Assembly: GCA_021791495.1 (NCBI GenBank)
Contig: JAJYWN010000005.1
Coordinates: 39,366-103,365, forward strand
Length of the DNA: 64,000 nucleotides
Direction: 5' to 3'
From: Bacillota bacterium
GTDB taxonomy: Bacteria; Bacillota; Sulfobacillia; JAJYWN01
The position numbers were made by a program, and so were the translations under genes. Shown here piece by piece: positions 5,797 through 59,257 of the stretch (positions within the stretch are counted from its first letter, which is position 1; each line of letters opens with the position of its first letter). The notes under the pieces were generated by a model that did not search any database, was not told where the DNA came from, and saw only the letters and a list, made by a program, of their open reading frames with translations.

Positions 5797-6158
5797 CGTT
5801 CTCCCTCCGACAGGAGCCGCGCCGCCACTTGGGGCGGCTCCAGACCTTCGATGAGGACGGTCTTATGGCGCCCAGTCTCCCCTGACAGGAGCCGCACCGC
5901 GCCACGCCCGATCCCCAGTTTCCCCGCTAGATACAAGACGAGGGCCCGATTGGCCTCGCCCTCAACCGGAGGCGCTGTTAGCTTCACTTTCAGCTCCCCC
6001 GCTTCCACTCCCGCCACCTGGTTACGAGACGAGCGTGGTTGGACTCTTAGCTTTATCACCGTGCCGTCCCGGTAGGCGGCGAAAGGCGATTGGCTGCTAT
6101 TCGTCGCCCTGCGCCCCCAGGCCTTCGTCGGAGGCACTGTCGCCGCCCCCGGCCTCAC
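5793..6158 (-). CDS. UPF0235 (YggU/DUF167) family protein
   Basis: A small protein with the family core VIKLRVQPRSSRNQVAG followed by LKVKLTAPPVEGEANRALV, typical of UPF0235. The function of the family is not established. The annotated GTG start overlaps divIVA by about 60 bases. The conserved domain begins only near the divIVA stop, so the true start may be an internal GTG (residue 8 or 34), and the N-terminal residues should be treated with caution. The stop overlaps the TTG start of ileS, indicating coupling within the divIVA-ileS transcript. Confidence 0.8.
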   Translation of the reverse strand: MRPGAATVPPTKAWGRRATNSSQSPFAAYRDGTVIKLRVQPRSSRNQVAGVEAGELKVKLTAPPVEGEANRALVLYLAGKLGIGRGAVRLLSGETGRHKTVLIEGLEPPQVAARLLSEGER

Positions 6159-6648
6159 TCGGAGCGCCGCCGGTGGGTACGCTCGGCGCGGTCTGCTCCT
6201 CTGGGAGGGTATCGTCCTCCAGGGCGTCCATCTGCGCCCGGAGCATACCCCGGAGTTTGGCCCGGAAGAGGCTGGCCTGGCGGACGGACTCCTCCAGCGC
6301 CCGCCGGCTGTCTTCCACCTTGCGCTCGGCCGAAAGGATGATCTCCTTGGCCCGCTGTTCGGCTTCCCGGACGATCAGTTCGGCCTCCCGGCGGGCGTTC
6401 TCCCTGACTTCATCGGCGGTCTTCTGAGCCACCACCATGGTCCGGTTCAAAGTATCTTCGATGTTCCGGTAGCGTTCCAACTCCTCCTGAGCCTTCTCCA
6501 ATTGCTCCTGAAGAGATGCGGTCTGCTTGATGTGGGACTCGAATTCCCGGACGACTTCGTCCAGGAAGTCATCGACCTCGGTCTCCTTGTAACCTCGGAA
6601 ACCTTTCGAGAACTCCTTATTATGAATGTCCATCGGGGTCAGGGCCAT
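6097..6648 (-). CDS. divIVA: Cell-division initiation protein DivIVA
   Basis: A 183-residue protein beginning MALTPMDIHNKEF with the FRGYKETEVDDFLDEV segment, the membrane-binding N-terminal module of DivIVA/GpsB proteins. A long coiled coil follows (about residues 35-135, rich in Glu, Arg and Ala), then a Pro/Gly-rich tail. DivIVA binds negatively curved membrane at poles and septa and guides division and, in spore formers, chromosome anchoring. A GGAGGTG site lies 7 bases before the ATG. It sits between yggT and yggU-ileS. The usual ylmH gene is absent upstream, and a palindromic repeat region occupies that gap. Confidence 0.95.
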   Translation of the reverse strand: MALTPMDIHNKEFSKGFRGYKETEVDDFLDEVVREFESHIKQTASLQEQLEKAQEELERYRNIEDTLNRTMVVAQKTADEVRENARREAELIVREAEQRAKEIILSAERKVEDSRRALEESVRQASLFRAKLRGMLRAQMDALEDDTLPEEQTAPSVPTGGAPSEAGGGDSASDEGLGAQGDE

Positions 6649-6668
6649 TTATCGCACCTCCGTTTATG

Positions 6669-6751
6669 ATGGGGGCCGACCCTCCGCCGCCCCGAACGCT
6701 CCGTCGGGCTAAGCCCGACTGCGCTGGCGGCTGCAGGACCCCGGCCCCCAT
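6669..6751. repeat. Nested palindromic repeat element, copy 1
   Basis: An 83-base element bounded by the inverted ends ATGGGGGCCG and CGGCCCCCAT. Inside, CCGCCGCC is matched by GGCGGC further on. The centre is a perfect hairpin, GTCGGGCT-A-AGCCCGAC. The nested symmetry suggests a cruciform or folded RNA. It lies in the yggT-divIVA gap and resembles copy 2 just downstream and the half copy between ruvB and ruvA. It has no coding potential. Confidence 0.75.
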
Positions 6752-6765
6752 ACCCCCTTGTCCTA

Positions 6766-6868
6766 ATGGGGGCCGCTTGAACTTGGCGGGGGCGGCACTC
6801 TCCGCCGCCTGAACGCGCCGCCAGGCGAAGCCTGGCTATGCCGGCGGCTACGAGTCTCCGGCCCCCGT
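6766..6868. repeat. Nested palindromic repeat element, copy 2
   Basis: A 103-base element with the same ends (ATGGGGGCCG and CGGCCCCCGT) as copy 1, the same CCGCCGCC..GAACGC block, and its own central hairpin GCCAGGC-GAA-GCCTGGC. The first half matches the sequence at 58519-58572 with about three mismatches over roughly 53 bases. After it, a fragment CGCCTCTAACGCTCCGTCGG (6883-6902) looks like a third partial copy. These repeats fill the 267-base yggT-divIVA gap. Confidence 0.75.
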
Positions 6869-6915
6869 CCCCCCTGAGACGCCGCCTCTAACGCTCCGTC
6901 GGACCGGGCCCGGGC

Positions 6916-7197
6916 TCATATCGCTCTTAAGAGGACCCACATGACCAGGCGCCTCACCAGATCCAGGAGCAGGATGGCGATGAGTGGGGTGAAGTCCAAT
7001 CCCGCCACCGTCATGGAACCGAACCTCCGGATTGGCTCGACGACCGGATCGGTGATCGAGGCCAGGAACCGGTTGATGCGGTAGAATTGCCTCCGGTATT
7101 GGTAGCTCGGCGTGAACCAGGACAGCAGCGCCCGGATGATGATCGCCCAGGTCAGTATGCTGAAGAACAGGTCTATGACGCGCGCCAGGTAAAGCAT
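6916..7197 (-). CDS. YggT family membrane protein
   Basis: A 93-residue membrane protein with two hydrophobic segments (about residues 1-22 and 68-88) and the family signature WFTPSYQYRRQFYRINRFLASITDPVVEPIRRF between them. In Bacillus and cyanobacteria the orthologue (YlmG/YggT) sits beside sepF and affects division or envelope organisation; the biochemical role is unknown. It is 22 bases from sepF and probably in the same transcript. The ATG start has a GGGAG site upstream. Confidence 0.9.
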   Translation of the reverse strand: MLYLARVIDLFFSILTWAIIIRALLSWFTPSYQYRRQFYRINRFLASITDPVVEPIRRFGSMTVAGLDFTPLIAILLLDLVRRLVMWVLLRAI

Positions 7198-58477: not shown

Positions 58478-58518
58478 CGGTCAACCCCAATCCCGACCGT
58501 GACCCGGTCGCCAGCTCA

Positions 58519-58574
58519 TAATGGGGGCCGCTTGAACTTGGTGGGGGCCGCACTCTCCGCCGCCCGAACGCCTC
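58519..58574. repeat. Half copy of the nested palindromic repeat
   Basis: Between ruvB and ruvA the sequence ATGGGGGCCGCTTGAACTTG...GTGGGGGCCGCACTCTCCGCCGCCCGAACGC matches the first half of copy 2 at 6766-6868 with about three mismatches in 53 bases. The second half is missing; ruvA's stop codon abuts the end. No coding capacity. Confidence 0.75.
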
Positions 58575-59257
58575 TAAAGTTTGCGAAGCGACCGGCGGAC
58601 GAGTTCGCCGGCGTCAGCGCCGCGTGAGGCCCCGCCAGTGCCGCCCGCACCGGCCGCTCCGGCCGGCCCGTCACCTGTCGCCGCTCCGGCCGCCGCTTCC
58701 TTGGCGGCCTCCTGACCGGACTTCTCCACGGCCTTGGCCGCTTCGGCGCGGTTATAACCCAGAGCAACCAAGGCTTCCACGGCCTCGGCGACGGGGTCGG
58801 CCGGCACGAATTCCTTCGAGGGGACTCCGAACTTCTCCGCCGTGCCTTCCCAAAGCTGCCCAACTTTCTCCTTTAGCTCCATCACCAGCCGCTGGGCCGT
58901 CTTCTTCCCCACGCCGGGCAGCTTGGTGAGAGAGGTAACGTCTTCGTACAGGATGGCGCGGAGGAAGTCGCGGGGGCCGGCGCCGGAGAGGACTCCTAAA
59001 GCGACCTTCGGCCCGACGCCTTGCACCGTCTGAAGCAACTCGAAGAGATCGCGCTCCTCGGCGGTCAGAAAACCGTAGAGGGCGACGCCGTCTTCCTTCA
59101 CGTGATAATGGGTGAACAGCCGGACGTGGGAGCCGGTGTCGCTCAGTTTCGAGCGGGTGGAAAGCGGGATGTAGACCTTGTAACCAAGCCCTCCGGCTTC
59201 CACCACTACGTGGTCGAGGCCCAGATGAATCAGTTCACCGCTGACCGAGGCGATCAT
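58574..59257 (-). CDS. ruvA: Holliday junction branch-migration protein RuvA
   Basis: A 227-residue protein. MIASVSGELIHLGLDHVVVEAGGLGYKVYIPL, LFELLQTVQGVGPKVALGVLSG and the two helix-hairpin-helix motifs (LPGVGKKTAQRLVMELKEKV) bind the junction. It is slightly longer than usual due to an Ala/Gly-rich linker before the C-terminal RuvB-binding domain. The start is ATG overlapping the ruvC stop (ATGA), with GGAGGTGG 7 bases upstream; the ORF-track start is 60 bases too early. Confidence 0.96.
   Translation of the reverse strand: MIASVSGELIHLGLDHVVVEAGGLGYKVYIPLSTRSKLSDTGSHVRLFTHYHVKEDGVALYGFLTAEERDLFELLQTVQGVGPKVALGVLSGAGPRDFLRAILYEDVTSLTKLPGVGKKTAQRLVMELKEKVGQLWEGTAEKFGVPSKEFVPADPVAEAVEALVALGYNRAEAAKAVEKSGQEAAKEAAAGAATGDGPAGAAGAGGTGGASRGADAGELVRRSLRKL

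Follow-up and report, generated by a model that had tools for sequence, protein, structure and literature searches.

The 267-nt gap between yggT and divIVA is filled by two tandem elements and a fragment of a third, which belong to a newly described family of palindromic repeats, probably mobile. The feature is probably a non-autonomous, MITE-like repeat. Its 30 dispersed sites, its entry into gaps that are short in relatives, and two in-frame insertions argue for this reading, while a 22:4 bias toward the coding strand, which plain insertion in random orientation does not predict, argues against it, as do the absence of a target-site duplication, the absence of an autonomous copy with matching ends, and Y1 transposases with no flanking repeat. 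In the proposed mechanism, a putative transposase acting in trans would recognise the hairpin, and pairing would be kept because of this recognition. Arrays would grow by local duplication, and copies would persist where their cost is low, both in operon gaps that are not translated and in tolerant protein loops. In the operon gaps the hairpin is predicted to fold on itself, with access to the next ribosome-binding site unchanged from that without the hairpin.

The repeat unit and its hairpin

The window, meaning the whole stretch of 64,000 nt that was analysed, holds the copies listed in Table 1. Gene calling relied on a codon model that had been trained on this window, and names came from NCBIfam or from sequence inspection. 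All copies in the window lie on the minus strand, which is the coding strand of yggT, divIVA, ruvA, and ruvB. Unit 1 is the 3' unit of the array and adjoins divIVA, whose start lies about 12 nt beyond the array end. The tandem pair and the remote half copy described in the sequence-only reading are all present, although the half copy is slightly longer than claimed, with 94% identity over 53 nt (58519-58571, E=4e-18) and 93% over 56 nt.

Table 1. Repeat units in the window and the genes that border the yggT-divIVA array
Feature	Position	Strand	Evidence
Full repeat unit 1, 98 nt hairpin	6660..6757	-	CM match 99.4 bits (C35:46025-46122); fold z=-4.2
Full repeat unit 2, 98 nt hairpin	6777..6874	-	CM match 96.4 bits (C35:46142-46239)
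Degenerate fragment of a third unit	6880..6912	-	82% to unit 1 over 33 nt (repeat search)
Half copy between ruvA and ruvB: 3' half of the unit and duplicated 3' end	58516..58577	-	
divIVA, downstream of the array	6097..6648	-	ORF call; name from the sequence-only reading and sequence
yggT, upstream of the array	6916..7197	-	ORF call

The unit of about 98 nt has the form GGGGGYRTGGGGGCCGGGGTCC...GCCGCC AGCGCA GCCGGGC TTN GCCCGGC GGAGCGTTCA GGCGGC...GGCCMCCACCAAGTTCAA. It forms a single long GC-rich hairpin of five helices with imperfect inverted ends, GTGGGGGCC / GGCCMCCAC, and this outer helix is paired in 93% of cells. The tandem copies had been thought to carry different central hairpins; they share a single hairpin whose two arms have changed in a compensatory way, GTCGGGC/GCCCGAC in one copy and GCCAGGC/GCCTGGC in the other. 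Likewise, ATGGGGGCCG of copy 2, taken earlier for an inverted outer end, is the duplicated 3' end of the unit and not part of the outer stem. This duplicated end follows unit 2 downstream as TAATGGGGGCCGCTTGAACTTGG on the plus strand (ca. 6765-6787). A duplicated CGGCCCCCACCAAGTTC tail ends several arrays (6765-6787 and 58519-58541 in the window; also L006, L002, and L009) and is possibly the footprint of an insertion or duplication mechanism.

Across 41 copies, 96.3% of pair cells hold standard pairs. Double compensatory changes occur at 10 stem pairs, and they occupy 26 cells where shuffles give 4.3, a level that none of 500 shuffles reaches; the cells are tallied per copy, and some of the changes are shared through descent. 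Controls with slid partners have double changes at 2-4 pairs, against 10 in the true pairing. Because the double changes exceed both shuffles and slid controls, the pairing is under selection or maintained by templated repair, with a folded form in RNA or in DNA alike compatible. The test for compensatory changes that had been proposed earlier thus shows that the pairing is kept.

The unit is not coding, since its frames are open no more often than expected (20, 20, and 30 of 39 copies, against 62% in shuffled copies) and lengths differ by 1-nt indels between copies. It is also not an intrinsic terminator, as no U-tract lies 3' of the hairpin. A known RNA family was rejected as well, with no Rfam match in the window above the gathering threshold.

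Family size and distribution

The genome-wide covariance search called for in the sequence-only reading reveals a larger family than noted there. BLAST was followed by a covariance model (R1) built from 27 copies and applied to the 4.2 Mb host genome, a 97% complete draft assembly. The model gives 51 matches at E<=1e-3, and 48 of these, all full-length, fall at E<1e-10, which places the repeat well beyond chance. With two BLAST partials added, and given that copies at two overlapping contig pairs were counted twice, the total comes to about 51 distinct copies, distributed over 30 sites.

The arrays contain 1-4 units, arranged head to tail within every site. Units share 93% identity within an array (median 98%) and 86% between arrays. 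As units of one array are more alike than those of different arrays, the arrays probably grow by local duplication. They also break the assembly: the contig ends C41/C31 (115 nt) and C25/C17 (87 nt) overlap exactly inside arrays, and joining these two pairs through the repeat restores hutH-hutU and infB-rbfA.

The covariance model finds no copy in the 60 nearest genomes, in the rest of the class (153 other genomes), or in the phylum (398 others), samples that overlap and in which the nearest relative belongs to the same order and another family. A single exact degenerate pattern, to which diverged copies would be invisible, gives no match in GTDB and viral contigs. The phage search gives none either, and a phage origin was rejected on the zero counts in phages and viral contigs. 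Among plasmids there is a single match, weak and partial (E=5e-3), within a type VI secretion gene; it is probably due to chance, and a plasmid origin was rejected. By IleS, the closest named genomes, at about 61% identity, are MAGs of Clostridia/Bacillota. At present sampling, and as far as sequence searches tell, the family is lineage-specific and confined to one genome, in agreement with the earlier suggestion.

Insertion sites and orientation

Copies fill short operon gaps, among them infB-rbfA, nusA-rnpM, rpsL-rpsG, rpsB-tsf, atpA-atpG, and hutH-hutU; other sites include tilS-ftsH, yggT-divIVA, and positions upstream of smc, prfB, tuf, and glyQ. Placement between genes, noted earlier for the two sites in the window, is not exclusive, as copies also lie within the aspS and gpmI reading frames. 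In aspS, two units add 192 nt, or 64 codons, in frame. The AspRS matches in the PDB do not align over the corresponding residues 379-440, and three order-mates and one class-mate show short natural loop variation only at this position. In gpmI, one unit lies in frame on the opposite strand and contributes about 33 codons without a stop. Residues 235-277 are absent from PDB homologues, and the extra loop extends a short way beyond the repeat unit; the clean comparison here consists of the PDB sequences and relatives L163 and L166, the other two of four relatives being aligned in the wrong frame. The enzymes with these in-frame insertions are aspartyl-tRNA synthetase and phosphoglycerate mutase.

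The yggT-divIVA gap measures 267 nt here and 9-134 nt in 10 relatives where the genes are adjacent. aspS, gpmI, and yggT-divIVA thus all lack the insert in relatives, a comparison made by protein alignments and gap lengths in relatives outside the host's family. These filled and empty sites identify the unit as an insertion rather than an ancestral regulator.

At 22 of the 26 intergenic sites with a clear direction the repeat has the orientation of the coding strand (p=0.0005). The four opposed sites are rplL-rpoB, dapA-rnj, rpsE-rpmD, and the end of dnaE, and their distance to the next start codon is greater (median 206 vs 19 nt; p=0.017; n=4, post hoc). Occlusion of the Shine-Dalgarno sequence was rejected as the cause of the bias: accessibility of SD and start, predicted in silico at 17 sites, is 0.44 with the array, 0.46 with it flipped, and 0.46 with it deleted. 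Because these values are nearly equal, the hairpin is predicted to fold on itself and spare the neighbouring SD, and such a self-folding hairpin, as modelled, fits the tolerance of copies near ribosome-binding sites.

The bias could arise from the replication strand, from transcription-coupled insertion, or from selection on mRNA. Nearly all regions with copies have their genes on one strand, so these three sources are not separable here. The operons with rplL-rpoB, rpsE-rpmD, and rpsL-rpsG are normally same-strand neighbours; antisense copies at the first two and a sense copy at the third weakly contradict a strict replication rule. A tentative proposal is that the bias reflects insertion coupled to transcription or replication on a folded single strand, or else domestication of the hairpin as an insulated operon spacer. 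If true, either source would give palindromic repeats a route of their own into operons. The family is a clean test case of whether the transcribed orientation is preferred by mechanism or by selection.

The orientation bias also bears on an alternative in which the repeat is a domesticated intra-operon RNA element, a transcribed hairpin that adjusts mRNA processing or stability and is kept in coding orientation by selection. The strong covariation and the location of sites in operons of translation and energy genes are consistent with it, and ERIC provides a precedent with orientation-dependent effects on mRNA (PMC2229807). This explanation is nevertheless unlikely. The genes flanking copies have unrelated functions, all relatives searched lack the repeat, no change in ribosome-binding site accessibility is predicted, and no U-tract follows the hairpin. 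The copies within the coding sequence of aspS and gpmI also count against it, since insertion inside protein-coding genes favours a mobile element over an RNA regulator. The earlier description, "a miniature non-coding element or a structured RNA family", is borne out in its first half, as the repeat is miniature, non-coding, and dispersed; the second half is supported by the kept pairing, but not by the lack of a single gene class, the absence from relatives, or the insertions into protein genes.

Two further sites have unusual contexts. The copy ahead of the glyQ start (C30, L016 1380-1640) directly follows an apparent T-box antiterminator/terminator (AGGGTGGAACCGCG ... TTTTTTT). Another copy, flanked by two convergent genes (C18, L063 2033-2129), appears to supply the stop codons of both: TGA comes from its 5' end, and TAG, read on the opposite strand, from its 3' end.

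Relation to known repeat systems

Frequent in-frame insertion of palindromic repeats is best known from Rickettsia. The RPEs are palindromes of about 100-150 bp with a long stem-loop, lineage-specific and located both between genes and in frame in housekeeping genes, and nearly half of those in R. conorii are intragenic (PMC2229807, PMC10969869). The repeat described here shares the palindrome, the long stem-loop, the restriction to one lineage, and in-frame insertion in essential genes (aspS and gpmI). It differs in belonging to another phylum, in its GC-rich sequence and head-to-tail arrays, in having no conserved peptide frame, and in its intragenic copies at only 2 of 30 sites; the comparison is one of described features. 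As a probably mobile repeat, it adds a well-defined palindromic family to the Clostridia/Bacillota side of the tree.

The MITEs ERIC, RUP, and Correia are about 100-130 bp long and dispersed, with inverted ends and a hairpin if transcribed (PMC2229807). The present repeat is of comparable size, has inverted ends, is dispersed, and forms a hairpin. Unlike them, it has no TA target duplication, and no common flanking word occurs at its boundaries across sites. It also differs in the lack of a found autonomous IS with matching ends: in the 97% complete draft the end patterns occur only at the copies and as scattered unpaired matches.

REP/REPIN sequences are extragenic palindromes, many of which lie in co-directional gaps (PMC3733652), and the present repeat is likewise palindromic, dispersed, and found in such gaps. 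A REP/REPIN-type element would be mobilised by a RAYT, a Y1 tyrosine transposase, and Y1_Tnp genes are present in the host genome. This origin is highly improbable, as the unit is longer (~98 nt rather than 20-40 bp), has the ends AGGGGG and AAGTTC with neither GTAG nor CGTC, occurs in head-to-tail arrays only, and is not linked to a RAYT. The IS605-type Y1 transposase copies (C44, C51, C60, and C73) adjoin tnpB-like genes and are mostly broken or at contig ends. None of these four Y1_Tnp loci examined has a flanking repeat; the copies are unrelated to the repeat, and mobilisation by a RAYT was rejected.

MIRUs form head-to-tail arrays. They are short, apparently mobile units of operon gaps (PMC12548453). 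The repeat resembles them in its arrays, its coding orientation, its operon gaps, and its closeness to stop and start codons, and departs from them in having a strong covarying hairpin in place of a coupled internal ORF. A MIRU-type unit, in which a small internal ORF couples translation of the flanking genes, is scarcely credible and was rejected, as no frame is open clearly above the level of shuffled copies and 1-nt indels separate the copies. The MITE-like repeat may thus be compared, by analogy, with Rickettsia RPEs and mycobacterial MIRUs.

Remnants of the family also occur. A solo 21-nt 3' end at C41:22565 (L157 1060-1085), in a gap of two co-directional genes and just before AGGAGG, probably arose by deletion or by incomplete insertion. 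Contig C40 begins inside a repeat unit and holds a further remnant.
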